64,000 nucleotides of DNA, from the NCBI GenBank assembly GCA_038503065.1, contig JBCAMK010000013.1, forward strand, positions 868,001-932,000, given 5' to 3'. Origin of the DNA: Paragyromitra xinjiangensis. Lineage: Eukaryota; Ascomycota; Pezizomycetes; Pezizales; Discinaceae. Shown piece after piece: positions 3,006 to 63,884 of this stretch. Position numbers and translations under genes: made by a program. How positions within the stretch are numbered: position 1 is the first letter of the stretch; every line of letters begins with the position of its first letter. The notes under the pieces are model-generated. The model was not told the origin of the DNA. It was given only the letters and a program-made list of their open reading frames with translations, and made no database searches.

Positions 3006-3101
3006 TTTGTGGATAGCATTGTTTTGTCGCTACCGATAATAATCAGCGCAATCATTGCCCCCTGGGGATCATTCTCCTAGTTCGAAGAAGTCAATATAAA
3101 C

Positions 3102-18433: not shown

Positions 18434-19136
18434 TGTAACGGGTACGCCGTTACTGCCTCTAGTATGTGTAGTAGACCAGGGCCGGACTGATGGGACTGTA
18501 GGAGCCTGCATCGGTGGGGTTGCTCCCACATGCAGAGAGCTACCGCATCCCACTGATCTGGTTGATACAGAGGAACCGTATGTGCGTAAGCTGACGAGCT
18601 GACGGCACATAGACGGCTGCATCTACCACTCCGAGGAAGTGGTAGAGTTCTGAATCAACCTGTGCAGTATGCATCAGCGGAAGCTGATAGGCAACGCACT
18701 GGCAGCGCTATCTACAAGTAATACACATGCGGATTAGACTGAACTGCGCCGTGCATGTAGGACTGCAGTGTGCAGGACTATGCCGGGGGTTCATAAAGTC
18801 TAGAGTGGTCAGATTGCTAATGGAGGTGCGGCAGCTCTAGGAGCATAGCCCCCGGAAGTACGGAAGGTCTTCCGGAGTAGAACACCAGTCCATTTGGCAA
18901 TGGGACTCCGGGTCAAACCCAGTCCCCCACTAGAGCACGGCAGAGCGAGGACTGCGGAACGCAGGTGTTTAAATACATCGCGAATGCTCCACCCTGCTGC
19001 TCTTTCTTCAGCGATAGTTGAGCCCTTAAGATTCTTGAGTAGTTTGCACGAAAAGAATCGGATTCTGAACTTGATCTATATCCATTTCGCAACGGCCGTA
19101 CACCTAGCCTATCTACCTAGGCCTACCCCCGTTACA
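18434..19136 (+). repeat. 5' LTR of Gypsy-2 (703 bp)
   Basis: TGTAACGG...CCGTTACA. The first 20 bases also form GTAACGG/CCGTTAC. Candidate TATA: TTTAAATA at about 18968-18975. The block CCCTTAAGATTCTTGAGTA..TGCACGAAAA (19024-19055) is also conserved in the otherwise diverged Gypsy-3 LTR. Confidence 0.93.
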
Positions 19137-19138
19137 GT

Positions 19139-19147
19139 AGAATCTTA
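19139..19147 (+). promoter_or_regulatory. Candidate self-priming primer binding site
   Basis: AGAATCTTA, two bases after the LTR, is the reverse complement of TAAGATTCT at 19027-19035 inside the LTR. I see no match to a tRNA 3' end (no TGG start). This is the arrangement of self-primed (Tf1/sushi-type) chromoviruses, where the 5' end of the RNA folds back onto the binding site. Confidence 0.5.
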
Positions 19148-20739
19148 TCTCTCTACTTCACCTTCAGAATCACTTCCTGTAGCCCACCGGTACATGAGTT
19201 GGCTTTCGATCCTCTTCAGCTGTTTGAAGAGGAAACCTTCGATTCCTGACCACGTCTATTGGCAGGAGACCTACCCTGAGTGGCTGGACGAGCAGTATCT
19301 GCGAGATCACTGTTCCAGCACCAGTACAATCGAATTACCAGAAAAAGCACTCCTATACCCCAAGCTACGGCAATGGCATCACGTTCTGGACGATCCTCCA
19401 GCCGCAACACCCCAGCGTTAGGAGCACCCGCTCCTCCCCTTCAGATTCAATGGGAAAAGAAGATGCTGGCGGTTGGAGACGGAGAAGATGCACAGCTAGT
19501 CAAAGCCCCAAAGACAACCCTCGAGAAATACATCCCAGGTGTCCAGACCAACTGGACAGACCGGTCCAAGGTCACCATCGCTGAGTTCTTTGAGCACTAC
19601 CAAGAGCACATGAAGAGCTACATCAACAGCACGGTTGCCCAGGCAGGACATGCCTTACGGATGCTAGAGGAACGGCAGTCAGCTGAGCAGACCCTCATGA
19701 AGGATGCCATGAACTACCTGAACGATCAGGCCCAACACCTACAGCAGCGAGTGCAACACCTGCTGCTGTCAAGAGACGAACTAAGCGGAACAGAACCTAT
19801 GGACCTAGATCTACCGGAGCAGGCTGCTCCACCGGACTACCTAACCATTGTGCAGGAAGCTATCCGGAGTGGACAGCTACACATCAAGGCTCCGGAAGAA
19901 AGGGTAGGAAGACCCAGGTCTAACACTACGTTCCCTTTAGAGTCCTTTCCCCTACCACTTGCACCCCCACCTCCAGCACCACAACCACGACGAAGAGCAC
20001 GATCCCAGGCTCCTATAGACGAGTCCTGGATGCCCCTCGGCCTTTCTGGCGAATCCAGAACACCCCTACCCCCTTCACGCGGCTATGGTTCGAGTACCTG
20101 GGGACTCGGAGGATCTCAGCGCTCTGGTGGTGGTGGTTTGCCTCCTGTAACCCCTCAGGGTACATCAGGACGGGCACCACAGAGAACACCACCTGCTAAT
20201 TCACCTCCGCCCCCCTTCGACCGGCCGGCAACACCAAGGGAGGAGAATAGAGGAGAAGGAGAAGCAGCGGGCAATGGAGGAGATAATGGTGGAGGAGGAG
20301 GCAGAAGGGTAGGAGGAGGTGGTGGTAGGGACCCGGATTCCAGTGATAGTGACTCTGAACCTGAGGGTGCAGATCCTAAAGCCTGGAAGAGGTACTACCA
20401 TCGCAAGATGAGGAAGCAGGAGAAGAGGATGATGGAGATGATGGCCACGATGATGGGAGCAGGCGGTGGCATGTCCAACGCTGCCAGCAGGACCCGAGAA
20501 CCCAAGGCACCACAGCCTACTAAGTTCAAGGGAGAAGCCCATGATGTCAACCGTTTCCTACGCCAGTGTGAGAACGTCTTCTCGATAGAGGCATCCTCCT
20601 TTCAACAGGATGTCATGAAGATCCATTACACTGGTAATCTCCTGGAAGGCAACGCAGTGCTCAACTGGTATGAGGCCTACTATAACCTCATCGACCAAGG
20701 AGCAGCTGATAGGGCCGCAGGGCGTCCAGTAGTCTTGGA

Positions 20740-23032: not shown

Positions 23033-26000
23033 CCAGTAGTCTTGGATGCCCACTGGTTCTCTTGGGCCACCTTCACGCTTTCGTTCCGGTCTTCGTTTGG
23101 GGATAGAGTCACCAGGGAAGAAGCGGTAGCTAAGTGGGATAAGCTCTCACAGACCGCCAGTATCGATGCCTTCTTGGACCAGATTGTGCAGTTGATGTGG
23201 AAGACAGGCTATAGCGGCGAGGTAGTGGATGATAAGATATCCCAAGGCCTCAACGCAGAATTAGCCCTCGATTGGGCTAAGGTAGCTGTTAAACCTGCCT
23301 CTCTTCATGAGAGGATTCAACTAGTCCGGCACATGGGTCATGTTCTTGAGAGATACAAGAAGACAAGGCCCCTGGAACGGAAGGAAGAGAAGAAGGGTGG
23401 TGGCGAGAGTAGTGGAAAGAAGAGGGGTGAGCAGAAGGGTCAGAGTACCGCTGCTACCTCTGATAGAAAGGCCGCTGGTGAGAATAAGACTCCGCCAGCG
23501 AAGAAGGATAAAGCTGTGGAGCTAAAAGGTATGTCTGAGTACTACCTTCCTTTAAGACAAGTACCTGACTGACCCATCCGCATTCACAGGAATACCAGAG
23601 AGTATCCTGGCAGAGAGGCGTAAGGCCGACGTCTGTTTAAAGTGCGGAAAGAAGGGCCATTCATGGGGAAAGTGTTGGACTCAGGTTCCTGTGGTAGCTA
23701 GAGTAGCAGCCACGAGGAAGAGGAAGAGAGCAGAAGAGCTAGAAGCCTCTGCTGTTCCACCGGAGTCTAAGAAGGGAAAAGCAGCCGCAGTAGCGGCAGT
23801 CCATAGTCCTGTTCCTCTCAAGGCAGAGCCTGAGAGATTGTTTGTAGTAGATGAGGATAGTGATCCTGAGATCTACTAGATAGCCATTCATTAGTCTTAA
23901 TATCATTTCGTTCTTACATCAGTTGTACTGAGGAGGCCTGATAGGCCGAAATCGCTGGATCGATATGCAACTTCTCCTAGCTAACACCCAGCTCAAACCA
24001 TCATCGATACCTGCACAGAAACCTGCTCAACGATCATTGACATCGTTGGTTGCGCTGGTATCACAGTACAACAGTCATGTCTACAGGCTACACCCCATAC
24101 AATGACGGCATGCGTAAGACCTTGTCCGAGAGACAAAAGGCAAAGCGTCAGCGAAGCCATAGCCCTAGTGGAAACCCACCATCGAAGAGAAGACTAGAAG
24201 AACCGCCAGCACAGCCAGTACATGGTCAGAGGCCTATACTGAAGGCTGAGTTGAACTGGAAGGTGCGGAAGCATATCAACAGGTGCCATGGTAAGTTCCT
24301 GTTTGATACTGGCTGCACCGGACCTATCCTCAGCGAGGAGTTTGTGAGGAAGGAAGGGATACCAACGGAGAAGCGTGAGGTTCCCATCCAGATGCTTGAT
24401 GCCCAGGGTGACCTGATGATGGGAGCTGGCGAGTATTTTACTGCCCCCCTAGACATGGTCATGGGCAAGCATGAGGAACTGATCCGTTGGGAGGTTGGAC
24501 CTCTAGAGGGAGGCATCTCCGGGTATCTGCCTATCTCATGGGCACAGAAGCACAACCCAGACATCGATTGGCATACCGGCCGCATCCATTGGCGTTCCGA
24601 TTACTGCCACAAGAACTGCATCCCCACCGATGTCCACATAGAGGTGTGCGAAGACTGGGAGATGATGGCAGAGGACCGGGCCAATGTCCACCAGATAGGA
24701 GCGGCGGTTTGGCATGATGATAGCGGAGGAGACGTGAGCCTGAGGCTACCAGCGGAGTATAGGGAATGGGCGGATGTCTTCAGCAATGAGAAGAGCTCAA
24801 AGCTGCCGGAGCATGGTGCTTTCGATCACCACATCAACCTACAACCAGGAACGAAGCCACCGTTTGGGCCCTTGTATGCTTGCTCGGAATCAGAGCTCAA
24901 GGCCCTCCGGGAGTTCCTGAACAAGGCCCTGCCATCTGGAAAGATATCAAGGTCCAATTCCCCCGCCGCTGCGCCTATCCTGTTCGTTCCTAAGCCTAAT
25001 GGTACTCTCCGCATTTGCGTTGACTACCGCGGTCTTAACAGGATCACAGTGAAGGACAAATACCTGCTACCATTGATGTCTGAGTTGAGGGACAGGCTGA
25101 GAACCGCTAAGGTCTTTACCAAGATTGACCTGAAGGATGGGTTCAACCTGTTGAGGATAGCCAAAGGGGATGAGTGGAAGACAGCGTTCAGGACCCGGTA
25201 TGGCTTGTATGAGTACAATGTCATGCCCTTCGGCCTCTGCAACGCCCCTTCGTCGTTCCAGGCTATGATCAATGAGGTGTTGCATGACCTATTGGATCTG
25301 GGCGTGATAGTATACTTAGATGATATACTTATCTACACAGAGACAATTGGGGAGCATCAACGCCTTGTTCAGAAGGTGCTGCAGAGGCTTCGAGAGGCAA
25401 GTCTGCATGCACACATTGACAAGACCTTCTTCCACTTGAAGGAGGTTGAGTACTTGGGATACCAGATCTCTGAGCGTGGCATCTCTATGTCTAAAGAGAA
25501 GGTCAACGCCGTGAAGGACTGGCCAGTCCCTAGGAATGTGAAGGATGTGCAAGCCTTCCTAGGCTTTGCCAACTTCTACCGCAGGTTCATCGCCGGGTTT
25601 AGCAAGGTGTGCAAACCATTGACTGACCTGCTGAGGAAAGAAGGGAAGTGGCACTGGACCGCTGCCTGTGACAGGGCTTTCGAGGAACTCAAGCAGCTGT
25701 TCACCAGCGAGCCTATCTTGGTCCACTTCCATCCACAGAGACGCACAGTTGTAGAGACTGATGCTTCTGACTTTGCGAAGGGAGCTGTGATGTCCCAGTA
25801 TGGCGAGGATGGCAAGCTACATCCTGTTGCTTTCTATAGCAAGAAGCACTCGCCAGCTGAGATCAACTATGACATCCATGACAAAGAGATGGGTGCCATA
25901 GTAGCTGCGTTCCGGGAATGGGAGCACCTTCTTAAGTCCGTTGAGGGAGAGGTTGTGGTCTTCACCGATCACAAGAACCTAGAGTACTTCAACAGTACTA

Positions 26001-26943
26001 AGGTTTTGACCCGCCGGCAGGCCAGATGGGCTGAGGACCTGGCGGGGTTTGATTTCAAGGTCATCTACAGACCCGGTGAACGGAATGGCAAGCCTGATGT
26101 TCTATCTAGACGTTGGGATCACCGTCTGGGAGAGGGAGGTGAACCTGCTGCCCCACAGCCGCAGTTGTTTTTCCGTCCTGGACAGCTTGTCATGAACTCA
26201 GCCAGACTCAGTGCTGTGAGAGTTCACCAGCTGCAATCGCCGTTCCTGCAGAAGCTGAAAGATGCGTCGTTGGGAGATGAGCAGTGGCAAGGGATCCGTA
26301 AGGCTTTGGAGGAGAAGAAGACTGGACTCGACCAGGCGTTGTCCCTTTCAGAGGGACTGGTGTTCTTCAAGAACCGCTGGTATGTCCCGGAAGGCAGAGA
26401 CCTCCGGCAAGAGATCTTCTCTGAGAACCATGATAGCAGGATTGCTGGGCACTTTGGGCAGTACAAGACCGCTGAGAGGATCAAGGCGAACTTCTACTGG
26501 CCCAACATGGACAAGGACATAGAGGAATACGTCCGCAGCTGCGATAGCTGTCAGAGGAATAAGACAGCTCGCCATAAGAAGTATGGAGAGCTGCTTCCCT
26601 TGGAGATTCCCTATCGCCCTTGGGCCTCATCCTGCACGCGAAAAAGATCCCTGCAAAACTCCAAAAGCTACGTTGCAACGGCGTTACACACTGCAAAAAG
26701 TCTCTAAATCTTCGGCTTCATTTCTCACCACTTCCCCGCTCTCGCAACCTTTCATCGGGCGCATTGCCCCAACTCATCCTGGATCCGCCCCAAACTCCTC
26801 CCAGGAGATCCCGCACACCCTCCCCATCTCCTGTAAAGTTGGTGACCTTTGGCACCAACTTCACCCTCCCCCTCATCGGCAAGAAGCGCACCCTCTCCAA
26901 CCCTTCACCAGCCCCCGCTCGCTCAGGATCCCCAACCAAACAA

Positions 26944-28353
26944 ATGGCGGCTCCTGGTCCCTCCACCGGTCAATCCCTCTTCGACTCAGCTCATGCTGGC
27001 CCCTCCACCGATTCCCAATACATCGACGAAGCCCTCATGCAAGAACTTCCCGATGATTCTACCCCCAACTGGCTCAAAGACTTCAGTAAACACGAAGACT
27101 ACATGCCCGACGTTGACCACGAGGACTCCACTGAGCAGTACCTCGCCTGGCTATCGAAATCAAGCTTTGCCAGACTCCACTCGCAAGTGGAAGAAAACAA
27201 CACCCACCTCCTCGCCAAAGTAGCCATGCAGGAGAATGACATCCTTAGGCTCACGGATCAAACTAAGATCCTGCAAGAAATGGTTGGAAAACTTTCCACC
27301 ACCCTCAACAACATGGCTAGGTCCCTTCAAACCATCGACAAGAACACCAGCCAACCCACTCGCACCCCGGCACCAGCCAGCAATCAGCAGCAAAAACCAC
27401 CTGCACAAAAACCCCAAACCCCCCTCCTCAATGACGGAAAGCCCATGACATATGCACAAGCTGCAAATGCACCCGCAGCTCCCTTCACCAAAGTCAACAA
27501 GGGCAAAAAGAAGAAGGCCCTCCCTCCCAAGCTCTTCCAACCCCAATTTACCGCCATCAACCGTCAAATCATCCTGGAAACCTCCGCCGACATCCCAACA
27601 TCAGTTGAAACTTCCTCCCTCCTAACCGCAATAAACAAGGAGCTCGCCCCACGTAACACCTCCATCCTCATGTGCACCAAAACCGCCAGGCACAACTTCG
27701 TTCTAACCACCCGCCCTGATGAATCTGCCGAACAAATTTGCCAAGCTTATCAGAAGGAAATCGAAATGGCATGTGCCCTCCTCAAAGTCCCCCTCGGCGA
27801 AGCCAGACCAAACTCCAAGTGGTCTAAATTCATTATTCACGGCATCCCTACCAAAGCAACAATGGCAGAAGTCACAGAACAAATGGCCATCTCCGTACCA
27901 ACTTTCACCCTTGCCCAGACTCCCCGCTGGCTCACTACTCCAGAAGCCAGAGCCAACAAAACCCATTCAGCAATCGTCATCGCCTTACCACAGAAATTCA
28001 CCATGGAAACACTCGGTCTCTCACAAATCCCCCTCTTCAACGCCTTCTGTCGAGTACAGGAATACATTGCTGTTTCCCCCACCACACAATGCAGAAGGTG
28101 CCAAGAATATGGCCACCACCAACAAACATGCAAAAAGGACTTCAAATGCGCAGTATGTGCGGAAGCCCACGAAACACTCAAGCACCCCTGCACCACCTCT
28201 GGATGCCCAGCAGGCACCAAATGCACTCACCCCCCAATCCGCTGCGCCAACTGCAATCAAGGACACAAAGCCTATGAACGCAAAGTTTGCATTGCCTACA
28301 CCAAGCTCACTGAGAGCCTTAAATCCTCCCGAACTAACACCAACACTGCTTAA
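26944..28353 (+). CDS. ORF1 of LINE-X copy 3, intact
   Basis: About 470 residues from the ATG after GSPTK; the frame is open upstream to 26620. It has the same features as copy 2: acidic N-terminal block with NWLKDFSKHEDYMPDVDHED, a coiled-coil-like segment (NDILRLTDQTKILQEMVGK), Gln/Pro linker, KGKKKKALPPKLFQPQ, and C-terminal knuckles CRRCQEYGHHQQTC, CAVC...C and CANCNQGHKAYERKVC. It probably coats the LINE RNA. The stop overlaps the ORF2 start (TAATG), pointing to termination-reinitiation. Confidence 0.87.
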   Translation: MAAPGPSTGQSLFDSAHAGPSTDSQYIDEALMQELPDDSTPNWLKDFSKHEDYMPDVDHEDSTEQYLAWLSKSSFARLHSQVEENNTHLLAKVAMQENDILRLTDQTKILQEMVGKLSTTLNNMARSLQTIDKNTSQPTRTPAPASNQQQKPPAQKPQTPLLNDGKPMTYAQAANAPAAPFTKVNKGKKKKALPPKLFQPQFTAINRQIILETSADIPTSVETSSLLTAINKELAPRNTSILMCTKTARHNFVLTTRPDESAEQICQAYQKEIEMACALLKVPLGEARPNSKWSKFIIHGIPTKATMAEVTEQMAISVPTFTLAQTPRWLTTPEARANKTHSAIVIALPQKFTMETLGLSQIPLFNAFCRVQEYIAVSPTTQCRRCQEYGHHQQTCKKDFKCAVCAEAHETLKHPCTTSGCPAGTKCTHPPIRCANCNQGHKAYERKVCIAYTKLTESLKSSRTNTNTA

Positions 28354-31300
28354 TGCAGCCACACCCAACTTCATCAGGCATAGCCATAGTGCAGCAACTG
28401 AACTGCGCCAAAGGACAGGCCTCTACTCTTTCAGTAATTCGGGACATTGATTCATCAAACAACATTCTTATCCAAATGCTACAGGAACCTTGGGTAGACC
28501 ATAATGGCCTACCTCCAGCAGCAAGCAACTTCGACATATATTTTCCTTGTGTTTTTCCTAAAGTCGTTATTTATATTCGAAAGAACCTTAACATAAAAAC
28601 GATCGTCACATTTAAACCGAATCCAAACATGATTGCGGTCACCCTTCAAACTGCACACACCAAATTGGAAGTTTGCAACTTATATCTTCAACCTCGCACC
28701 AATGATAATCATTATCTTCCACTACTATCACACTCCTTTCATACAAATTCTATTTTAGCTGGAGACTTCAATCTACACCACCCGTGGTGGTACGGAAAAG
28801 AAGCTGAAACCTCCCACCGATACTTCTCCAGGCATTTACATCTTACAGAAACAGTAACAGAATGGCTAGAGGAAAATAACTTCAGACTCCTCAATAAACC
28901 AGGCACATTCACACATTTCCCGCGAAATGGAAATTCCCCCTCTATCATTGATTTAACCTTCGCCAGAGGCCTCACAGATATACTAGGCCCATGGTCAGCA
29001 CCTGCCACAGACGGCCATAATTCTGACCATATCACATTGAAAACCGTTTTATACCTACATCCCCCTTCCTATATATCCCGACTCCTCTACTCCAAAACCA
29101 ATTGGCCTATTTTTCACAAGACCATACAAGATGGAATCATCCCCTTCGATTATAGCAACATACAGGCAACTGAAACCACTCTTGATCACATCGAAAACTT
29201 AATCAACAAAGCCATTCAAAACGCAGTCCCCCTCTCCAAACCCAAAATACAAGCCAAAGCCTGGTGGACACCTCACCTTTCCACTCTCAAGCGCAAATTA
29301 ACCTGGCTAGAAAAACAACGACGAAAACCAAATTCTTCACCCATCATCCGACACCAAGCAAATGAAACGAGACGCATCTGGAGAGCCGAAATCATCCAAG
29401 CAAAATGGAATCACTGGCACCTCACTCTCAAAGGCATGAACCCAAGCGCGGCATGGAACTTATTAAACAAATCCTCCGCCCGCAACAAATCCACAATCCC
29501 AGCCATACAAGGCAACACAACCAATGAAGACATCGGGGCATCCTTCCGCCAAACCTTCTTCCCTCCCCAAAATGAACCTCCACCCCTCCCAATTGACTTC
29601 CTACCTCCCCCCCTCACAGACACCAGCGAACATACGCACATCATCACAGCCCAGGAAATAGAAAACCTACTCCAACATTCCAACATGCGCACAGCAGTGG
29701 GAGCGGACGGCTTCAACTACCTCACCCTCAGGGAGGTACACAGAGCCCGACCAGCACTCCTTGTTGCCCTATTCAATAACCTCCTACAGTCAGGCCACAT
29801 GCCCGACAGATGGAAAATCACACACTGCGTCCCCATCCCTAAATCGAACAAGGCAGACTACTCGGATCCCAAGAGCTATCGCCCGGTATCTTTACTATCC
29901 TGCCTAGGCAAGCTTCTTGAAAAAATAGTAGCAAAAAGCCTGGAACGGTATGCCACCCTTAACGGAGCTATCCGACAACATCACACAGGAGCCAGAACAG
30001 GCGTATCTGCCATCGATTCACTCCATCTGATACTCACCCCTGCACAAAAACAACTCCTCATACCAATCACCAACAATGATCGAAAAACCCAGCGCCTACC
30101 TCCCCGACCCACCCTCCTAGCAACAGATATAGATGGAGCTTTCAATTGCGTTTCCCATCCCCATCTAATTCAAATCCTCCAACATTATCGATTTCCAAAC
30201 TGGTGCATCAAATGGATGTCCAGCTTCACTTCCAATCGCACCCTCGCCTTCAGAATAAATGGCAACCTGGAACCACCTCTCCCGCTCAAAATCGGCCTTC
30301 CCCAAGGATCACCACTTTCATCAATTACATTTGTTATCTACGCAGCCGCACTGGATTCCCCAAATGCCCCCACCAATGAACTGTCCACCATATACATTGA
30401 TGACGACACCGCACTACAACTCGCAAAAACCCCGCTATATGCCACGAAGAGGCTAACCGAAAGGCACAAAGCCAAAACCCAAAGGGCAAACTTCCTCAAC
30501 ATATCTTTCTCTGAGCCCAAAACCGAGCTGCTCCACCTAATTCCCTCCAGCAGCAGCCTGTCAATAAAACAAAGCATACATCTCTTCAACAAAACCATCG
30601 ACCCATCTCCTCAAATCAAGGTCCTAGGCATTACACTGGACCAAAGATTGAACTTTCACACACACTGCCAGAAAGCAGCCTCCAGACTACGAACATCGTT
30701 ATATTTAGTCAACAACCTCGTCAAGAGCAAGGGCCCAACACCACACCTCCTACATCAATTAGCCCTCACCATTATCCTCCCAGCAGCCCTGTTTGGCTCA
30801 GAGGTATGGTGGACTGGCACTTCAGACATTCTCAATCGACTCAACCCCCCATACCATAGGGTTGCCCGACTCATAACCGGCCTCCCCAAATTCACCCCCA
30901 TCAACAAACTCCTGCCAGAGGCAGGACTGCCCCCCCTCAACTTATTACTGGACATGCGCACACAACTTTACGCAATACGTATCCTACGCAGCCCCAACAA
31001 CCCCCTTCATCACATTTTACAACAACACTTACAACACAACAAATTCGTAGGCACAGGCCTACAAAGAGTTGGCAACGTTCTCTCTAAACTCCTTCAGGGA
31101 TCCCCACTTGAAGCCCTTTCCCTCCCCGCACATCCATATCTCCCTCATAACAACATCCACATAGTGGGCACCAAACAATCGGCGACCCTATCCCACAAAG
31201 ATTGGATAAATTCCCTTTCCAATGCCTGGGTAGTCTATTCAGACGGATCCAAATCCGAAACAGGCACCACCGCAGCAGGCTGGAACATACAACATATCTT

Positions 31301-32075
31301 TGCCGGAACAACCCTCCAGTCACACTCAGGCAACTGCAACCTCGGACATCAATGTGAAAACGAAGATGCCGAACTCCATGGTATACAGGAAGCCACTTCA
31401 TATCTCATCCAAAACCTACCAATAGACAATGCCGACATTTACCTTTGCATTGACAATCAAAATGCAATCAGAGCCTTAACTGGAGGACCCACATCCAACA
31501 GACAATTTTTGAACGATACTTTATCGCACATCAAAACCCTCCATAATCTAAACTGTTCGATCACCGCACGCTGGACCCCATCTCACATGGGCATAGCAGG
31601 CAACGAGATAGCAGATCGACTGGCCAAGGAAGGGCTAACAAAACATCCATGCAAACACACCTGCACAACATTGGGCTGGCTTTGCCTACAACCCAAATTA
31701 CAACTCCTAAGAGAATGGCAGCGGAATGCTCCCACTCCAGTTTCTTTACATCCTCCTCACGTTATCAGATTCCTCCGACGATCACAAGCACGAGCTATTT
31801 CCCTACTACGCACGAATCAAACCAAAGCGGACCCAAACCCACTGACTCCTCCAACAACATGTGCATGCGGAGAAATATCATCATCAGTACACTTAGCCTT
31901 ACACTGCCCGCTAAACCTTTCTTCACGCCCACAATGGGGAAGTAATTGGCACACAGCAATATTGAACAACACCAACGCAACTGATTTACTTTACTTTATT
32001 CGTATGAATAATTTGGTTCAACTTTCTTCAAATTCATATTTGGATGCAATCTCCAATTGTAACTTGCTTGATTAA
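28353..32075 (+). CDS. ORF2 of LINE-X copy 3: endonuclease, reverse transcriptase, RNase H
   Basis: 1,240 residues, all open. N-terminal endonuclease: QLNCAKGQAS, LQEPWVDH, AGDFNLHHPWWYG, DHITL. RT from about residue 500: SYRPVSLLSCLGKLLEK, HHTGARTGVSAIDS, ATDIDGAFNCVSHP, GLPQGSPLSS and the catalytic YIDDD. RNase H from about residue 960: YSDGSKSETGT, EDAELHGIQEA, CIDNQNAIRAL, GNEIADRLAKEG. C-terminal Cys/His cluster CACGEISSSVHLALHC. This domain order (endonuclease-RT-RNase H with a preceding CCHC ORF1) is that of the Tad/I-like LINE groups of fungi. It nicks the target and reverse-transcribes the RNA in place (target-primed reverse transcription). Confidence 0.92.
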   Translation: MQPHPTSSGIAIVQQLNCAKGQASTLSVIRDIDSSNNILIQMLQEPWVDHNGLPPAASNFDIYFPCVFPKVVIYIRKNLNIKTIVTFKPNPNMIAVTLQTAHTKLEVCNLYLQPRTNDNHYLPLLSHSFHTNSILAGDFNLHHPWWYGKEAETSHRYFSRHLHLTETVTEWLEENNFRLLNKPGTFTHFPRNGNSPSIIDLTFARGLTDILGPWSAPATDGHNSDHITLKTVLYLHPPSYISRLLYSKTNWPIFHKTIQDGIIPFDYSNIQATETTLDHIENLINKAIQNAVPLSKPKIQAKAWWTPHLSTLKRKLTWLEKQRRKPNSSPIIRHQANETRRIWRAEIIQAKWNHWHLTLKGMNPSAAWNLLNKSSARNKSTIPAIQGNTTNEDIGASFRQTFFPPQNEPPPLPIDFLPPPLTDTSEHTHIITAQEIENLLQHSNMRTAVGADGFNYLTLREVHRARPALLVALFNNLLQSGHMPDRWKITHCVPIPKSNKADYSDPKSYRPVSLLSCLGKLLEKIVAKSLERYATLNGAIRQHHTGARTGVSAIDSLHLILTPAQKQLLIPITNNDRKTQRLPPRPTLLATDIDGAFNCVSHPHLIQILQHYRFPNWCIKWMSSFTSNRTLAFRINGNLEPPLPLKIGLPQGSPLSSITFVIYAAALDSPNAPTNELSTIYIDDDTALQLAKTPLYATKRLTERHKAKTQRANFLNISFSEPKTELLHLIPSSSSLSIKQSIHLFNKTIDPSPQIKVLGITLDQRLNFHTHCQKAASRLRTSLYLVNNLVKSKGPTPHLLHQLALTIILPAALFGSEVWWTGTSDILNRLNPPYHRVARLITGLPKFTPINKLLPEAGLPPLNLLLDMRTQLYAIRILRSPNNPLHHILQQHLQHNKFVGTGLQRVGNVLSKLLQGSPLEALSLPAHPYLPHNNIHIVGTKQSATLSHKDWINSLSNAWVVYSDGSKSETGTTAAGWNIQHIFAGTTLQSHSGNCNLGHQCENEDAELHGIQEATSYLIQNLPIDNADIYLCIDNQNAIRALTGGPTSNRQFLNDTLSHIKTLHNLNCSITARWTPSHMGIAGNEIADRLAKEGLTKHPCKHTCTTLGWLCLQPKLQLLREWQRNAPTPVSLHPPHVIRFLRRSQARAISLLRTNQTKADPNPLTPPTTCACGEISSSVHLALHCPLNLSSRPQWGSNWHTAILNNTNATDLLYFIRMNNLVQLSSNSYLDAISNCNLLD

Positions 32076-33632
32076 AGAATGAAAACTGGTAATCCGGGCG
32101 GGGGAAGCTTTTCTTTTGTTTCCGGTTATTGGGGATATTTCATTTATTATATTTTTTGATTTGATTTAAAGTCGTTTAAGTGTGATTGTTTGTTATGTTT
32201 CGTTTTGAGTTTTCTTTATTATGTATGATGTTTTTCTTTTTAACGGGGAAGAAGAGGTTGGCGGTGGATGAGGTCATGTATTCTTATACGCGTACCATTC
32301 GGTAGCTAGTTAGGTTAGCGATCGTCTAAAATTAAATGAAATTGGAAAATTGGAAATTGGGCCTCAATTTCTATGGACTTCATTGTGGGACTACCTGAGT
32401 CCAATGGGTACACCAAGGTGTGGGTCATAGTTGACCGCTTCTCCAAGATGGCTCACTTTATTCCGCTGCCAACGCTGAATAAGACTGAGGACATGGCGAA
32501 GCTCTTCCTTACTGAGGTATGGAAGCACCACGGGCTCCCTGAGGACATAGTCTCAGATAGAGACAGCAAGTTCCTGTCCCACTTCTGGCAATCATTGATG
32601 GACCTCCTCTCAGTTAAGCTGAACCTATCGACGGCCTTCCACCCACAGACAGATGGCCAAACGGAACGGGTTAATCAGACGCTAGAGCAGTACATGCGTA
32701 CGTACTGTTCCTATCAACAGGACGACTGGGCAGAGTCACTACCTCTTGCGGAGTATGCCTACAACTCTGCCATCTCCGAGGCCACAAAGTACTCGTCGTT
32801 CTGCGCCAACTATGGGTTTGAACCTAGAACCAACTGGCCCAAACCGAAGCCGTCTACTGAGTGGAGCAATCCAGCGAGCGAGGTGATCATTTCACAGTGG
32901 GAGACTATCTGGGGACACATGAACGCAAACCTGGCAAAGGCAAGACTCCGGATGGCCTGGTGGTATGATAAACACCACATGAAGGCGCCAGAGGTAAAGC
33001 CTGGGGATGAAGTGATGCTTGACCGCCGCAATGTGCAAACAAAGCGGCCGATGAACAAGCTGGACCGCAAGAAGCTCGGTCCCTTCAAGGTTGTGAAGGC
33101 TGTAGGCAAGCGTGCTTACCAGCTAGACCTACCCCCGCAGATGAAGATTCATCCTGTGTTCCATGTCAGCCTACTGGAGCCATACAAGACTCCTGAAGAC
33201 CCGCTGAGAAGAGTGCCCCCGCCGGAGCCAGAGGAGATAGAAGGCCAGGAGAACTGGGTGGTCAACGAGGTGGTGGATTCGAGGGTGAACAGGCAGGTGA
33301 AGAGGGTGGAATACCTAGTGCTCTGGGAAGGATTCGAGCAGGAGGACGCTACTTGGGAACCATGGGAAAACCTGAAGAGGACTGCGGAGGATGCACTCCT
33401 GGACTTCCACAAACGCTACCCCAAGAAGCCTAGGGAGGCTCGAGTGAAGGGGCTATCGTAGCCATGCTTCTTTTGTCTTTATTTCCTATCAACGATACAA
33501 GCTATCTTTCCTGCATCTCAATCATTTCCTATCGGCGGTATTCTCTCTTCAATTATTTCATTTGTACAACACCATCATAGACCTAGACCTAGACATAGAA
33601 CGAGTATTGTAACTAGACCCTGAGGGCAGGTT

Positions 33633-33649
33633 CTTGGAGAGGGAGGTAC
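33633..33649 (+). promoter_or_regulatory. Polypurine tract of Gypsy-2
   Basis: TTGGAGAGGGAGGTAC lies directly before the 3' LTR. The same AGGAGAGGGAGGTAC precedes the Gypsy-3 LTR at 55450-55466. Between the pol stop (33461) and this tract is 170 bp of non-coding sequence. Confidence 0.8.
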
Positions 33650-34352
33650 TGTAACGGGTACGCCGTTACTGCCTCTAGTATGTGTAGTAGACCAGGGCCG
33701 GACTGATGGGACTGTAGGAGCCTGCATCGGTGGGGTTGCTCCCACATGCAGAGAGCTACCGCATCCCACTGATCTGGTTGATACAGAGGAACCGTATGTG
33801 CGTAAGCTGACGAGCTGACGGCACATAGACGGCTGCATCTACCACTCCGAGGAAGTGGTAGAGTTCTGAATCAACCTGTGCAGTATGCATCAGCGGAAGC
33901 TGATAGGCAACGCACTGGCAGCGCTATCTACAAGTAATACACATGCGGATTAGACTGAACTGCGCCGTGTATGTAGGACTGCAGTGTGCAGGACTATGCC
34001 GGGGGTTCATAAAGTCTAGAGTGGTCAGATTGCTAATGGAGGTGCGGCAGCTCTAGGAGCATAGCCCCCGGAAGTACGGAAGGTCTTCCGGAGTAGAACA
34101 CCAGTCCATTTGGCAATGGGACTCCGGGTCAAACCCAGTCCCCCACTAGAGCACGGCAGAGCGAGGACTGCGGAACGCAGGTGTTTAAATACATCGCGAA
34201 TGCTCCACCCTGCTGCTCTTTCTTCAGCGATAGTTGAGCCCTTAAGATTCTTGAGTAGTTTGCACGAAAAGAATCGGATTCTGAACTTGATCTATATCCA
34301 TTTCGCAACGGCCGTACACCTAGCCTATCTACCTAGGCCTACCCCCGTTACA
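33650..34352 (+). repeat. 3' LTR of Gypsy-2 (703 bp)
   Basis: By eye identical to the 5' LTR except for one C-to-T change. On its right the sequence enters the second helicase gene in mid-exon, without a copy of the left flank. Confidence 0.93.
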
Positions 34353-56199: not shown

Positions 56200-57962
56200 G
56201 TGCCAGTCCACCATATTTCGGAGCCATATAATGCAGCAGGTAATATGATGGTGAGAGTGAGTTGATGGATCAGATTGGGGGTGGGGCCTTTGTCCTTGAT
56301 GAGATTATTAACTAAGTAGAGGGAAGTTCTTAGTCGGGAGGCAGCTTGTTGACAATGGGTGTGGAAATTCATCCTTTGATCGAGGAGGATGCCCAAGGTT
56401 TTGTTACATGGGGAGGGAGAAATGGTTGTATTGAAAAGATTGATGGATTGTGAAGGTGGGTAGGTGGTGCTTGTGGTTATCAAATGTATCAATTCCGTTT
56501 TTGATTGGGAGAGGGTTATGTTTAGATAAGAGGTTCGTAAGGTTTTAGCTGCGTGTCTTTCAGCTAACCGTTTGGTCGCGAGGGCCGGGGATTTGGCTAA
56601 TTGTAACGCTTTGTCGTCATCGATGTAGATGGTGGAAATTTCAGCTGGGTTGGGACTATGTGGAGGGTCCACTGCAGCGGCGTAAATGACAAAGGCAATT
56701 GAAGAGAGTGGGGATCCCTGCGGGAGTCCAACTAGTAGGGGTTGAGGGGTTTCTAGTTCCTTGTTTATGCGGAAGGCTAAGGTTCGATTGGTTGTGAAGC
56801 TTGTCATCCATTTGATACACCAAGAAGGGAAGGTGTAATGCTTGAGGATTTTTATGAGGTGTGGATGGGAAACACAGTTGAAGGCTCCATCGATGTCTGT
56901 TGCTAGGATTGATGGGTGGGGGGGTATCCGTGATGCTTTTCTATCATTCCCAAGAATGGGAATCAATACTTGCCTTTGTGCGGTGGTGAGGATGTAGTGT
57001 AGAGAATCAGTAGCGGAAACTCCTGTTCTTGCTCATGTGTGGTGTGGTTGGATTCATCAGCAAGAACAAAAAATGACCTATTTGAAATTAGGATCATGTT
57101 CTTACCACTGTGACCTATTTGGCTCCTATTTGGACCTCTGTGGCCTCTGTGGCCTCTGCAGAGGAATATATCAAAACTTCCTCGGAAACCTCCACAGAGG
57201 AATGTTGACCTCTGCAGAGGCCACAGAGGCCAAATAGGAGCCAAATAGGCTACAGAGGTCAAATAGGCCACAGAGGAATGTCGTTTGTTTTTGCTGATGT
57301 TGCGCCGTTCAAGGTGGCACATGTTTCGAGTTTTTTGGTGACTATTTTCTCCAGTAGTTTGCCGAAGCAGGAAAGCAGGGAAACCGGGCGGTAACTCTTA
57401 GGAGAAGAATAATCGGCTTTGTTCGATTTGGGGATTGGAACGCAGTGAGTTATTTTCCAAACTTTGGGCATGTATCCTAGGTGCAAGAGGTTGTTGAATA
57501 GGCTGGTTAAAATGGAGGGACGGGCTCGATGTGTTTCGTGTAGGGTTATGTAATTGATTCCATCAGGTCCGACTGCTGTGCGCATGTTGGACTTTTGAAG
57601 AAGGAGGTCAATCTCTTCCGCTGTGATGAAGTGTGAAAAGGTGCTGGTATTTGAAATGGGGGGGGGTAAGAAGGATGGGGGAAAATCAGGTGGGGTGTTC
57701 TGGGGAGGGAAGAAAGTCTGGCGAAAAGCTTTGCCGATTTCTTCGTTACTTTCTTGTTGATTAATGGGGGGGATATTGGGTTTATTTCGGGCTGAATTAC
57801 TGTTGAGTAAGTTCCAGGCCGAGCTGGGGCTGATATCTTTAAGAGATCTATGCCAGTGATCCCATTTGGCGAGGGTGATTTCTGTTTTGTAGATTTTGCA
57901 GATGGAAATGGCTTGCGTTCTGAAGTGAGGTGGGGAATTAGGTTTCCTGGCTTTGGATTCAA
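56200..57962 (-). pseudogene. ORF2 (RT part) of LINE-X copy E
   Basis: Fragments of the RT region: WKITHCVPIPKSNKADYSSPKSYRPVSLLSC, then beyond the MITE ARTGVSATDS, ATDIDGAFNCVSHP, GLPQGSPLSS, YIDDD and LYGSEIWWTGT. Frameshifts occur near 57590 and 57880. Beyond half-LINE E the piece 60327-60417 reads KSWWTNNLRK. Very similar to copy F (62621-64000). Confidence 0.83.
57055..57299. mobile_element. 245-bp MITE-like foldback element
   Basis: Ends CATCAGCAAGAACAAA (57055) and the reverse complement of CATCAGCAAAAACAAA (ending 57299): 16-bp terminal inverted repeats with one mismatch. Deleting it and one TT restores the length of the LINE-X sequence, so the duplication is TT/AA. Inside are perfect 19-bp arms CTATTTGGCTCCTATTTGG (57115-57133) and its reverse complement (57230-57248), and repeats of CCTCTGTGG/CCACAGAGG. 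Confidence 0.75.
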
Positions 57963-57996: not shown

Positions 57997-60314
57997 ATTT
58001 ATTTATTTATTTATTGTTCATACTCGCATGCATCTGAATCGGATATGGCGTACAGCAGAAGAAAACCCAACAGGAACACAAAAGAAAACAAAACAAAACT
58101 AACTAATCCTCCACCAGTTCCAACTCAGCCTCTTCTAGGCTCATCATCAGTGAATGTGTTAATACCCCGATCTAGTGACTCCCTCTCACAGTGTCAAGAC
58201 TACCCTGGGCATTCTTCCTTTACCATCGCTTGCTTTGTGCCTATAGCACTCCTTCCACCAGGTCCAAAGACCCCTGAAGGTTGGATACATCAATAAGGGT
58301 GGGGTGTAACTTAAGTTACCATGCGATCCCGACGTTCGCTGGCACTAAGTCTGGCTTGCGTGAGTTTGAGGCAACCAGAAAGGTTACCACGATGTGGTTC
58401 GTTACAGTTCTTGCAACGGATGAGGGTGTGGAGGCAGGGAGCTCCTTTGATGGTGCAAGAGGAGGTTGCGCAGGAGTGGGAGGATGCTGTATGAGGCCCA
58501 GCACAAATGTTGCAGAAGGGTATCTTGCTGGTACAGCGTTGTTGTGGGTGGCCAAAGGCCAGGCAGGTAGTACATTGGGTGTCTGGCCCAAAGCGAAGGT
58601 ATTTGGTGACTTTGTGGCGAAGTCCAAACATGGAGAGCCCTCTCTCAAGGGCAGTGGTGGCAGGCTGCTTCCCCACAATGGTAAGAACCATGGAGGATGC
58701 CTGTTTCCCCTCTCTCTGCTCAGGTCTGGTGAGCCAGCGGGGGTCGCGGAGTAGGGTGGTGCCTGGGTTAAACTGCTCAACCTGAGATCTGATTTGCTGG
58801 AAGCCCTCTTCGCCAGAGGGAATGGAGGTGGGAATGTTGTGCACAACAACTTGGGTCAGGACTGCTTCCTTTTCCATGCTGTTGGCATTGGGGATGGTGT
58901 TGCGAACAACTTCCTCAAGCTTTTGTCTTTGCTTGAGGAGGGAGTCAGAGGTAGTGGAGGTGACAGCAATGAGCTGCACATGGTGAGCTGGTGTGAATCG
59001 CACCTCTGCAATCAATGGCCTTTCCAGGGCAGCATTGACTGCATTGCGAATGAGGAGTGGGGTGATGTCATCAGGAATGGGTAGACCATTCCTGGTGATG
59101 ATGAGTGTGCGGTCGCGTTTTGGGGGGTTTGCTGGTGTTTTGGTAGGCTTGGAGGCCTTGCTGGTGGGTCTAGGAGCCCTTTTAGAGGCAACCTGAGCCC
59201 AGGAGGTGGTGGCTGGTGGGGGAGCAGTTGCTGGAGGTAGGGGAAGGTTGGCAGAGGTCAGAATGGTTGTGAGGGTCCGTTTCTGTTCCAAGTCTGCAAC
59301 CTTGGAGGTGAGGGTAGCCACCTTTTCCACTAGAGCAGGGTCGTTGTGGAAGGTAGGGGCTGGTGGAGGTGTATTGATGGCTTTTTCAAGCGGTTTGACG
59401 CGTTTTGTGAGTGCTTTGATGAGCCTGTTCTGCTCATCCATCACTGTGAAGAGGGAGGGGTTGTAGTTCTCCCCAGTACCAATGGCACCAAGGCGATCCA
59501 AATTGCTGTTAGAATCATCCATCTGGATGACTGGAGGTAGGGTGGTGGAAAAGGTGAGGGGTCCCTCTGTGTCTGTCATGTCAGAGTCAGACTCTTGCAA
59601 GAGAACAGAGCCACTGTCTGTACCAGTGGGGTCTGTGGCGGGCAGGGAGGCATAGTGAGGTAGGGGGACTGCTGGGCGAAGTGGCAGGGCTTGTGTAGGT
59701 GTCTGCTCTGGGTCACCATGGAGCAGAGACGAAAAACGGTTGTTTGGGGGTGTTGTAGGGGTGCCAAAGGGCGTTTGGAGCGGGTTTTGAGGTGAGCTAG
59801 CCACAGAAGAGGGAGACCTGAAGCCTCTGCCTCTCCCTCTGCCTCTGGACGAAGAGGAAGACATAGAGAATGGTCCTGAACCGACAGGAGGAGGTGGGGT
59901 GTATGGGGGGATGCTGTGGGGCCCTGGGGGGGTCCCTGGCGGGTGGGGGAGAGTGGGAGCAGGAAGTGTCAACAACTTCTGCAAATCTGCTCCGATCCGA
60001 ACGAACGAGAAGGCGATCGAACGGACGCGTTGTAGGGAGTCTAAAAAGCCCGGGGTCGAGCTAATCGGACGTAAACTGGTGGAGTTATGAGGTTTTGCAG
60101 TATCTCAAGATTTGGTGTGGTTTTGGGGAAAAGAGGGGTAAAACAGCGAATTCGACAACAACTTTTGCAAATCCGATGCAAACCAGACGTACAATAGCAG
60201 GATCGAACGGGGGCAGCGAGCTGATTCCGAATCTTCAAGAATCTCGTCGATCGGAGTAGTATTGGTGGAGTTGTGACCAAAAAGTCACTTTGGCGTTGTT
60301 GTTGTCGGTAATTT
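57997..60314 (-). mobile_element. Half-LINE copy E, full length, inside LINE-X copy E
   Basis: Target duplication TTTTCGGAGGTT at 57985-57996 and 60315-60326. Tail ATTTATTTATTTATTTATTG left, 5' terminus GTTGTTGTTGTCGG near 60308, then a few bases (TAATTT) that may be untemplated. The 5' UTR has the same two-part structure as copies B and C. Confidence 0.93.
58311..59864 (-). CDS. ORF1 Gag-like CCHC protein of half-LINE copy E, intact
   Basis: I start at ATG 59864 (MSSSSSRGRG) as in the other copies; the frame happens to be open 40 codons further up (to 59984), but that segment lies in the 5' UTR of the relatives. About 517 residues with the RG-rich start, a coiled-coil-like helix and the CTTC..GH..C, CNIC and CKNC knuckles. 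A short insertion (GTDSGS) distinguishes it in the acidic patch. Confidence 0.87.
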   Translation of the reverse strand: MSSSSSRGRGRGRGFRSPSSVASSPQNPLQTPFGTPTTPPNNRFSSLLHGDPEQTPTQALPLRPAVPLPHYASLPATDPTGTDSGSVLLQESDSDMTDTEGPLTFSTTLPPVIQMDDSNSNLDRLGAIGTGENYNPSLFTVMDEQNRLIKALTKRVKPLEKAINTPPPAPTFHNDPALVEKVATLTSKVADLEQKRTLTTILTSANLPLPPATAPPPATTSWAQVASKRAPRPTSKASKPTKTPANPPKRDRTLIITRNGLPIPDDITPLLIRNAVNAALERPLIAEVRFTPAHHVQLIAVTSTTSDSLLKQRQKLEEVVRNTIPNANSMEKEAVLTQVVVHNIPTSIPSGEEGFQQIRSQVEQFNPGTTLLRDPRWLTRPEQREGKQASSMVLTIVGKQPATTALERGLSMFGLRHKVTKYLRFGPDTQCTTCLAFGHPQQRCTSKIPFCNICAGPHTASSHSCATSSCTIKGAPCLHTLIRCKNCNEPHRGNLSGCLKLTQARLSASERRDRMVT

Positions 60315-60417
60315 TTTTCGGAGGTTGTTTGTCCACCAGGATTTGGCATGGGTTCTGGGTTTGGATAGCGGGATGGCTTGTTCCACTGCTTGATTAATGA
60401 CAGTGAGAATGCGCGAG

Positions 60418-62620
60418 TGTAACGGGGGTAGGCCTAGGTAGATAGGCTAGGTGTACGGCCGTTGCGAAATGGATATAGATCAAGTTCAGAATCCGATTCT
60501 TTTCCTGCAAACTACTCAAGAATCTTAAGGGCTCAATTTTTTTTTTTTTTTTTTTTTCAATTAATATTGGTTTCCGCATTGATGTACTAAAATACATATG
60601 GCGTAAGACCCGAAGGTCACAAAACATAACCGAACATACATGGAGGAGAAAAGATAACACGGCCAAATGAAATCAAAACCTCCGACAAGCGTCAAACAGA
60701 TAACCTAACACCAGTAACTATGGTTTGCTACCAACCGCACATCTCGTCCAAGAGCAGGGCAAAGGAAATCCGCGCATTCAACTGGTTACCTACAAGAACT
60801 GGCGAGGTCGTAGGGATTTTCTAACGGGGTGAACTATCAAACTGCAATGACTATGGTATGTCATCAACTGCACTTCCTGTTGCAAGGCAGGCCGAAAGAA
60901 TAGTTCGAACAACGGGGTGTCTCCGAGGAGACGATCAAACTGGGTGAGAAGTGCAAGCACTTCTCGAGCAAAAGGGGGTGAGAGTCTGGCAAACGAAACT
61001 CTCGGTAGGCGGGTGATGATTCCTAGGAATCATCGTTCTTACTGGGTGTCTCCAAGGAGACAAAATAGGGTGAGGTTGAGCTAAACAGAACCTCGGTCAA
61101 TGGGGTGACGATCTGGCGGAACGTAATCGTCGGTTAAAGCTGGGTGACTCTGGGAGGAGTCATTCAGGCGGGGTGGTCTCTGGTTTATTGAACGGTCCCA
61201 GGCGTTGTCCTCTCTGACCGTGTAAAAGTTTAAGGGCTACTTGCGCCCGTGATTGATGGGTTGTACCTTGCGAGGTACGTCTCGGAGGGGGGTGGTTAGG
61301 CAACCACGGCCAAGAAGGAGAATGACGGAGGGAGATTGAAGATGCTAAATATGATCCCTAAGGTACGAGATAGACATCCAATATGTTCGCGTCGGTAGAA
61401 AGGTAGTTTAACACAATAGAAGCCCAGCACGATCCCTAAGGTACAGAAGGGAACGACTAAAGTGCAAACGAGGCGGAGCGGGGGGGGGAATTCGAACGGG
61501 TTGCCACACAAGCGAACAGGTGTGGCGCTGTATATGGGTGGGGAACCGATGTTCCCCGAAAAGCGGGGTTGCTACGCATGGCTCGGATGAGTTGCGCAAC
61601 AGGGTCAAACGGGGGCCCCAACCTCCAAAGGAGTTGGGGTATCGTGAAGTATGTGAGAGCAAGGACGCGAACGTTGCTCTCGTGTAGACGGGGGAGGAGT
61701 CAAGATATTAACTCCATTCAAACGGGGATGAATTCTCCAAGAGAATTCGGTTGTAATGGTGCCACTCAGGCGAAACGAAGTTTCATGAGTGGAGTTGACG
61801 AGGCGTTGTTGAGCTCGCTAAGCTCGGGTTCCGTAGAGTTTGATGGCGAACATGAACCAGCAGTGACCATAGGTGATACTGGGGTCGACAGAACGCTCGT
61901 ACGGGTGAAAGGAGTATGGATAGAGCGATATAGCACCGGCGAGGTACTTATCCATGATCGATGAAGTTGGAATTAAAGAAGGAAAACCCACGATGTCGCA
62001 AAACCCGAAGGTTAGGCGGTGGTTTCGAAGGCTCAACTATCGCTGAAGAAAGAGCAGCAGGGTGGAGCATTCGCGATGTATTTAAACACCTGCGTTCCGC
62101 AGTCCTCGCTCTGCCGTGCTCTAGTGGGGGACTGGGTTTGACCCGGAGTCCCATTGCCAAATGGACTGGTGTTCTACTCCGGAAGACCTTCCGTACTTCC
62201 GGGGGCTATGCTCCTAGAGCTGCCGCACCTCCATTAGCAATCTGACCACTCTAGACTTTATGAACCCCCGGCATAGTCCTGCACACTGCAGTCCTACATG
62301 CACGGCGCAGTTCAGTCTAATCCGCATGTGTATTACTTGTAGATAGCGCTGCCAGTGCGTTGCCTATCAGCTTCCGCTGATGCATACTGCACAGGTTGAT
62401 TCAGAACTCTACCACTTCCTCGGAGTGGTAGATGCAGCCGTCTATGTGCCGTCAGCTCGTCAGCTTACGCACATACGGTTCCTCTGTATCAACCAGATCA
62501 GTGGGATGCGGTAGCTCTCTGCATGTGGGAGCAACCCCACCGATGCAGGCTCCTACAGTCCCATCAGTCCGGCCCTGGTCTACTACACATACTAGAGGCA
62601 GTAACGGCGTACCCGTTACA
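60418..62620 (-). repeat. Solo LTR of the Gypsy-2 family, interrupted by the hairpin retroposon
   Basis: 60418-60536 plus 62037-62620 join to exactly 703 bp and match the Gypsy-2 LTRs almost base for base (with the 5' LTR's C at the one variable site). Minus orientation. The flanks are two different LINE-X copies and no 5-bp repeat is seen (GCGAG against CAGGA), so this too looks like a recombination product. Confidence 0.88.
60537..62029 (-). mobile_element. Hairpin-array retroposon: 1,493-bp non-coding, poly(A)-tailed insertion
   Basis: Target duplication GGCTCAA at 60530-60536 and 62030-62036. A run of 21 T at 60537-60557 is a poly(A) tail on the minus strand. From 60827 to about 61825 the sequence is a chain of short hairpins with different stems, most introduced by GGGTG or CGGGG. 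Examples: GAGAAGTGC/GCACTTCTC (60946-60965), GATGATTCC/GGAATCATC (61015-61034), GTCTCC/GGAGAC (60919-60932 and again 61048-61061), GGGGAAC/GTTCCCC (61540-61557), GAGAGCAA/TTGCTCTC (61655-61681), GAATTCTC/GAGAATTC (61730-61748). No ORF longer than 131 codons, and none with recognisable motifs. The host LTR is nearly identical to its relatives, so the insertion is young. Confidence 0.85.
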
Positions 62621-63884
62621 CAGGAGGTAGGAAATTTGGAGGAAAATCAATTGGAATGGGCTGTGGGGGGAAAAAGGTGCGACGAAAGGCTTTACTGATC
62701 TCTTCGTTGCTTTCCTGGTTCTGAATTGGGGGGATGTTAGGCTTATTGCGTGCAGTGCTCTTGTTCATGAGATTCCAGGCGGAGCTGGGGGTTATGTCCT
62801 TGAGGGTGTGGTGCCAGTGATCCCATTTGGCTAGCATGATTTCGGTTTAATATTCTTTTCTTGTGGAATTGGCGAGGGTTCGCCAGTGAGGAGGGGCATT
62901 GGGTTTCCGTGCTTGTGTTTCGGCCCATGAAAGTTTTCTTTTCAGGGATTTGAGGTTGGGTGTCCACCATGATTTGGAATATGGTCGGGGTTTGGACAGG
63001 GGTACTGTTGACTCTATGGCCAGGTTGATGGTGTTCGTGATGTTCGTGAGGGTGGAATTGGCTTTCTCTTTGTTGAGATAATTGAAGGGAATGGCCGCTT
63101 CCTGTATGATGCTGTGAAAGAGAGGCCAGTTCGTTTTGGAATATAATCGACGGCTGGAATATTCTGGAGGATGGATGTAGAGTGTGGTATGTAGGGAGAC
63201 GTGGTCGGAGTTGTGTGGGCAATTGGGGGGGGCTGACCAAGGTCCGCAGATGTCAGTCAGGCCTCTTGCCATTGTGAGGTCGACAATGCTGGGTCTTTGC
63301 CCATTTCTGGGGAAGTGGGTGAGGGTGCCTGGTTTGTTGAGTAGGCGAAAGTTGTTAGAATCCAGCCAGTTTGTGATTCGTTCTGTTAATGCTATGCGGT
63401 GCGAAAAAAGATGTTGGTAATTTTCGGCGATGGGGCCATACCACCAAGGGTGGTGTAGGTTAAAGTCCCCTGCTAGAATTGTGTTCTGATGAAAATGATG
63501 ATAGAAAAGCGGGAGGTGGTAGTCGTTAGCGCTGCTGCGAGGTTGAATATAGACATTGCAGATTTCAAATGTAAGATGAGGAATCTTTATGAGAATGGAA
63601 ATTATATTGGGGTTAGGTGAGAGTGTGGTGAATATTTTTGTGTTTTTTAGGTTTTTCTTGATATAAATAATGACTTTGGGTGACGGGGAAGGATAGTATG
63701 CATCCGCGGTTCTGGAATTAGGAGGAAGTGTGTTGTGGTCGAGCCATGGTTCCTGTAACATGAGAATGAGGGTGTGTTGAGAATGGTCGAAGTGTGAAAT
63801 GGCTGAGAGGGTAGAGGCTTGTCCTTTGGCGCAGTTCAGCTGCTGCACCGTGGCTATGCCTGTTGTGAGAGGTTGTGTCTCCAT
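62621..63884 (-). pseudogene. ORF2 N-terminal part (endonuclease) of LINE-X copy F
   Basis: ATG 63884 overlapping the ORF1 stop (TAATG). Contains QLNCAKGQAS, LQEPWLDHN, AGDFNLHHPWWYG, NSDHVSL, and SWWTPNLKSLKRKLSW. A frameshift near 62850 (after RTLANSTRK) moves to the frame with AKWDHWHHTLKDITPSSAWNL. It ends at the LTR after FLPPV. No RT remains. Confidence 0.83.

Follow-up and report, generated by a model that had tools for sequence, protein, structure and literature searches.

A poly(A)-tailed hairpin-array retroposon, probably mobilised by LINEs, in an LTR of Paragyromitra xinjiangensis

The insert and its host LTR

The sequence analysed here (the window) is a stretch of 64,000 nucleotides from the fungus Paragyromitra xinjiangensis, in which an LTR is split by a poly(A)-tailed insert. 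The features of this locus are listed in Table 1. Both termini of the element could be read directly, with the A tail at one end and TTCGAAACC at the other, and the same 7-bp sequence, GGCTCAA, stands on both sides. Outside the insert, the occupied LTR has 1 and 2 differences in ∼710 bases from two empty LTRs in the same window. Thus, with the duplication on both sides and the empty LTRs so close, the insertion is real and recent. An earlier note, made from this sequence alone, had described a 21-base poly(A) tail on the minus strand, a 7-bp target duplication, a nearly unmutated LTR and a recent move through RNA, and all of these were borne out, the duplication limiting the insert to exactly 60537–62029. 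The note had also seen no ORF. The longest frame of the window copy, which encodes 128 aa on the strand opposite the poly(A), takes this rank in two of the seven copies of its family (family A, see below). Longest ORFs vary by copy (105 or 128 aa, antisense, in family A; 48–121 aa in a related family, B), and a coding function was rejected because they are unlike between copies. The element is non-coding, without a conserved ORF in either family.

Table 1. Coordinates of the retroposon, its parts and the host LTRs in the window
Feature	Position	Strand	Remarks
Empty-site version of the host LTR, inverted	18434..19136	.	LTR comparison
Second empty-site version of the host LTR, inverted	33650..34352	.	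LTR comparison
Host LTR, TGTAACGG...CCCGTTACA, split by the retroposon	60418..62620	.	TGTAACGG at 60418, CCCGTTACA at 62620
Target duplication GGCTCAA (minus strand TTGAGCC), poly(A)-side (3') copy	60530..60536	.	Read directly and LTR comparison
Hairpin-array retroposon, family A	60537..62029	- (RNA sense = minus)	1493 bp with A tail
Poly(A) tail, 21 nt (T run on plus strand)	60537..60557	-	Read directly
LINE-type 3' stem-loop tail, 46 nt	60558..60603	-	38/46 identical to the LINE tail at locus L031, 40/46 to the ORF1-only tail at locus L030
3' two-hairpin module, second copy	60701..60764	-	
3' two-hairpin module, first copy	60834..60897	-	
Tandem units, variable stem-loop and constant CACCC linker	60914..61180	-	Eight hairpins in family A, three in family B, by eye
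Ten-hairpin block conserved between families A and B	61503..61883	-	
Hairpin h3 holding ACTTCGTTTCGCC, a motif also in LINE/ORF1-element 5' UTRs	61762..61792	-	
Target duplication GGCTCAA, copy at element 5' end	62030..62036	.	Read directly and LTR comparison

The right half of the host LTR has at least 40 further matches in the genome. This part (62030–62620) is itself rich in hairpins (7 perfect hairpins, 2.1 after shuffling; z −3.1). Elsewhere in the window, an LTR pair at 18434–34352, at least 99% identical to the host LTR and with the target empty, encloses ∼14.5 kb that hold a Ty3/gypsy-type reverse transcriptase ORF (24050–26707) and a LINE ORF with endonuclease, reverse transcriptase and RNase H (28353–32075); this is a young, nested element. 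The segments 57662–57961 and 62623–62922 are 71% alike, and the latter overlaps a LINE endonuclease ORF.

Copies, hairpins and compensatory changes

Beyond the single copy described in the earlier note, a DNA search of the whole genome (48.2 Mb in 22 contigs) identified seven near-full copies of family A including the window copy, to which the six others are 91–93% identical. Weaker matches of the same query (71–77% identity over ∼250–420 nt) led to family B, which has nine near-complete copies (over 1240 nt, query included; the other eight 91–95% like the query) and a further seven partial copies at 89–94%; the copy counts of both families are lower bounds. Family-A elements are 1465–1493 bp long and those of family B ∼1250 bp, and further, more diverged hairpin families may exist. 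Two family-A copies on contig C21 form a head-to-tail pair, whose junction (locus L012, ∼3030–3045) has almost no poly(A) (GGCTCAATTCAATTAATATTG), unlike the LINE junctions; a dimeric template or unequal exchange could be responsible. The hairpin-element loci (on C3, C10, C13, C15, C16, C19, C21 and others) lie in contig interiors beside many retrotransposons, in regions that may be centromeric.

The earlier note had counted about 20 consecutive hairpins, and their density is indeed far above expectation. In the 1005-nt hairpin region, we found 17 non-overlapping perfect hairpins (Watson–Crick pairs only, stem of at least 6, loop of 2–20), compared with 2.69 ± 1.32 and a maximum of 6 in 100 dinucleotide shuffles. 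The local-fold energy gave z = −7.1 on the minus (poly(A)) strand versus −2.3 on the plus strand, and 890 nt of family B contained 9 perfect hairpins (2.70 in shuffled sequence), with z values of −4.4 on the poly(A) strand and −2.8 on the other. Folding therefore favours the poly(A) strand, the minus strand that the note had proposed to fold. Among the controls, LINE ORF2 had z +0.8 with 2 hairpins and ORF1 z −1.1 with 5; the LTR half (z −3.1) and the neighbouring ORF region at 59101–60100 (z −4.1), with 7 perfect hairpins each, fell below their shuffles. Since two of four controls behaved in this way, fold energy alone is insufficient.

Part of the body is built of repeated units. On the plus strand, nine GGGTG leads begin at 60915, 60942, 60976, 61011, 61044, 61068, 61103, 61142 and 61171. 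Read as RNA, a unit begins with a short stem-loop, continues with CACCC and closes with ∼10 more bases, often ending in ACCG. The alternation of constant and variable parts that the earlier note had reported is thus present, but its constant lead is, in the RNA, a CACCC trailer with a ∼10-base linker after the hairpin, and its freely varying palindrome was not upheld, since the stems covary and pairing is kept through paired changes. Family A has eight units where family B has three (counted by eye), so units have been gained or lost while the stems drift.

Ten hairpins are present in both families, with weakened stems in single copies. To compare the families, we took the majority bases of 7 family-A and 12 family-B sequences at 75 stem pairs of these ten hairpins in the alignable stretch, the register of three indel-bearing hairpins being set by eye. 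Changes on both sides were found at 20 of the 75 pairs, 18 of which still pair, versus two of the six pairs changed on one side. When the 3' letters of the 20 pairs were redealt, the mean was 8.35 and 18 was reached in none of 100 000 shuffles. It should be noted that the automatic version of this test gave a weak result, with pairing kept in only 10 of 18 pairs changed on both sides and 893 of 20 000 shuffles doing as well, because MAFFT misaligned the hairpins with indels, and it stands as a result against structural conservation. In seven hairpins without register correction, 98.4% of 900 cells were paired and 14 broken, 13 pairs had changed on both sides, a number that none of 500 shuffles reached, and structures slid along the alignment gave 32–51% pairing. 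For the eight tandem units of family A, 98.0% of 350 cells were paired (96.7% in shuffles) with seven broken, and four pairs had changed on both sides, which 1 of 500 shuffles matched. Wider RNAalifold structures had 34 of 2744 and 76 of 3861 cells broken. Covariation score and paired cells exceeded all 500 shuffles in the tandem-unit and seven-hairpin counts and in that of the 3' module described below, and further pair types did not (500, 460 and 373 of 500 shuffles as high, respectively); all these shuffle statistics ignore the kinship of the copies. With compensatory changes above both shuffled and slid controls, selection on stem pairing is supported within and between the two families, as expected of a conserved structured RNA. 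The earlier note had asked whether the stems might be random, unconserved sequence, and the paired changes answer in the negative.

A two-hairpin module is present twice close to the 3' end of the element in both families. Across 33 module sequences, 98.5% of 264 cells pair. Seven of the eight pairs show changes on both sides (5.7 in shuffles, 88 of 500 of which reached seven), and 58 cells were changed on both sides versus 12.6 in shuffled data, a value attained by none of 500 shuffles. The genome contains the module core 72 times in exact form and its reversed control not at all; 48 of the 72 form 24 pairs spaced by 203–209 bp. At five loci (L043, L044, L045, L046 and L048), reading by eye also placed the module downstream of what looks like zinc-knuckle coding sequence of the ORF1 type. 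The LINE at locus L031 has no match to it, and thus the module is not simply a LINE copy signal. Single module copies occur at L047 (618–681), downstream of an unrelated-looking coding region, and at L046 (610–673). A match to the module in IMG/VR, inside a phage gene, was taken as chance.

A second shared motif is the 13-mer ACTTCGTTTCGCC, with 34 matches in the genome and none for the reversed pattern. Twelve of them fall in the fetched loci, five in hairpin h3 of family A (five of seven copies) and seven in the 5' UTRs of LINE and ORF1-only elements of both lineages. The complete motif was found in none of 14 family-B sequences, partial ones counted; its last nine bases alone are in 11 of the 14. 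On contig C4, ACTTCGTTTCGCC recurs at 969902, 972076 and 974247, in steps of ∼2.17 kb, which suggests a tandem array of ORF1-only elements.

LINE partners and target sites

At locus L031 (C15), the A tail of a hairpin element is followed by TTGAATTGAGCC and then by a LINE that encodes endonuclease and reverse transcriptase domains and whose ORF1 and ORF2 regions are each split over two frames. After the 3' end of this LINE come an A tail and TTGAGCC, where the same LTR resumes with its other side. Its alignment to the hairpin-element tail scored 28, and 1000 shuffles gave at most 13. At locus L030 (C19), an ORF1-only element takes the place of the LINE (the tail identities in Table 1 were counted over the 46 nt outside the A run), and elements with an ORF1-like frame and no reverse transcriptase are found in hairpin-element arrays at both L030 and L032. 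In family B, hairpin, ORF1-only and LINE elements also stand in tandem, and the terminus of these arrays is TTTCTT|ACTTTACTTC or a close variant of it. The family-B target repeat occurs in at least 41 places including the query, several pairs being ∼5.6 kb apart (C4, C5, C15 and C20), and at locus L039 it lies beside a Ty3/gypsy polyprotein; we infer that this repeat is an LTR. By reading, the variable pairs of the tail stem differ by lineage and still pair (AAGUA/UACUU, AUGUA/UACAU and AAGCA/UGCUU). Each family sits at the exact site used by its LINE in one LTR, that of family B being a presumed one, and its members often stand head-to-tail with this LINE or with an ORF1-only relative of it. 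A protein search with LINE ORF2 gave 13 matches, all at 26% identity or below; one with ORF1 found no relative, and the best Pfam value (0.013, below the cut-off) pointed to no convincing family. The 3' tail type and exact target shared with a site-specific LINE would explain how the hairpin element moved.

Proposed mechanism and alternative explanations

Overall, the locus is probably best explained as a non-autonomous, LINE-mobilised retroposon of ∼1.5 kb whose body is a selected hairpin-array RNA and to which a scaffold role may be assigned. The core of this reading, that is, a covarying RNA of ∼20 hairpins with the module and a LINE-type tail, at the exact LTR site of the LINE, with a second family that has another tail and target, and with mobilisation by LINEs, appears very likely from the sequence comparisons. 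The LINE endonuclease/reverse transcriptase would recognise the 3' tail of the hairpin RNA, which would then be inserted by target-primed reverse transcription. The hairpin array could act as a multivalent docking scaffold for a protein of the LINE RNP, most likely ORF1p, and such a scaffold might make the non-coding RNA a better competitor of the LINE mRNA. This scaffold role, suggested by the shared RNA motifs only, is tentative.

Three other explanations were weighed against LINE mobilisation of a selected RNA. The body could be a captured structured non-coding RNA of the host that keeps its host function and gained the LINE tail by template switching. Strong selection on structure would fit such an origin, and there is a precedent in WEIRD, a non-coding RNA of 1.1 kb that is joined to 3' parts of LINEs (PMC2104539). 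However, LINE tails and targets are found at or next to each of the seven family-A copies and the family-B copies of the fetched loci, the whole-genome DNA searches found no full-length tail-less copy (a source with diverged stems could be missed by them, and the fetched loci took in all but a few short matches), and the same body with two LINE lineages fits a mobile partner better. We consider this explanation unlikely. The suggestion of the earlier note that the insert could be a retroposed copy of a highly structured long RNA gained no positive support as regards a cellular RNA, since the DNA searches yielded no copy that lacks a LINE tail, although it may describe the origin of the body.

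That all seven family-A copies occupy the same LTR site could also mean that the LTR retrotransposon or segmental duplication multiplied a single old insertion. Two copies on C10 are 99.5% alike in both insert and flank and may be one event, and those on C21 are a tandem, so that few clearly independent events support site-specificity. On the other hand, the LTR of the window copy is 99.8–100% like the two empty LTRs, whereas its insert is 91.8–93.4% like the other inserts and its LTR flank 94.6–97.1% like the other flanks (one flank over 280 bases only). With near-identical empty LTRs and an insert that differs by 6.6–8.2% from the others, at least the window insertion arose independently and recently. 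At two other loci, that site also holds a LINE or ORF1-only element in tandem, with an identical or near-identical duplication, and family B is at an unrelated site, which makes a single old insertion improbable. The inverted repeats might instead act as DNA, through palindromes, cruciforms or replication fold-back, as many of the stems are perfect Watson–Crick repeats that are alike on both strands. Against this speak the stronger folding of the poly(A) strand in both families, the recurrence among accepted stem cells of G–U pairs on that strand (A–C mismatches on the opposite one) and the fixed orientation of linkers and tail; a role as DNA thus seems very improbable.

The element is a fast-evolving natural RNA inside a mobile element, with a structure plainly under selection and a stem sequence that is nearly free. 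It offers a direct test of which features of a parasite RNA, other than its 3' tail, a LINE RNP recognises, an open question for non-autonomous retroposons, and it adds LINEs that sit at one position inside another retrotransposon's LTRs with ORF1-only and hairpin-only passengers. Such elements may form a class of selfish RNAs in which covarying hairpins and constant linkers, with units duplicated or lost and stems drifting through compensatory change, make a multivalent RNP-recruiting scaffold with exchangeable LINE tails, served by at least two LINE lineages, each with its site in the LTR of a single LTR retrotransposon family, as a three-level parasite chain.

Comparison with known systems

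The elements have the properties of a non-autonomous non-LTR retroposon, with poly(A), target duplication and empty site in family A and no conserved coding frame in either family. A MITE or other DNA transposon was rejected, as there are no terminal inverted repeats and the ends are of the kinds given above. The head of a SINE comes from tRNA, 7SL or 5S RNA and contains pol III promoter boxes; SINEs are usually under ∼700 bp and may carry LINE-derived 3' tails. ARAGORN found 0 tRNAs in all four loci given to it, and an Rfam scan of the family-A locus (59900–62700, E up to 5) returned three sub-threshold matches, none of them tRNA, 7SL or 5S; the best, ST7-OT4_3 (22 bits, gathering score 50), was rejected as chance. 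With no such head found and too great a length, the element is not classed as a SINE. It resembles SINEs with LINE-derived tails in being non-coding, with a 3' tail common to the partner LINE, an A-rich end, target duplications and one body with different tails, but differs from them in its length, its covarying hairpin-array body and one exact target per family.

SART and Tx1 are target-specific non-LTR retrotransposons, and some of this group form head-to-tail arrays at one site. The exact target is likewise shared with R2, TRAS and Utopia, whereas the targets in the present case are LTRs, and the hairpin element is carried along as a non-coding passenger. HAL1 is an ORF1-only LINE derivative, comparable to the ORF1-like elements without reverse transcriptase at L030 and L032; the hairpin element itself, unlike HAL1, is without any conserved ORF.

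No equivalent was found in a narrow literature search. The new non-autonomous element that the earlier note had proposed is supported in so far as the insert is unusual, non-autonomous and non-coding, with poly(A) and a LINE-type tail. In the available part of a report on Magnaporthe grisea, Mg-SINE is said to mimic the MGL LINE, and WEIRD, in the MINE elements, is described as not a transposable element and as joined to 5'-truncated LINE parts (PMC2104539). That part of the report mentions neither a hairpin array nor a fixed target for WEIRD (PMC2104539). Nevertheless, WEIRD/MINE, as presented there, is the nearest described case that we found, since there too, likewise in a fungus, a non-coding RNA of ∼1 kb is joined to the 3' end of a LINE (PMC2104539).
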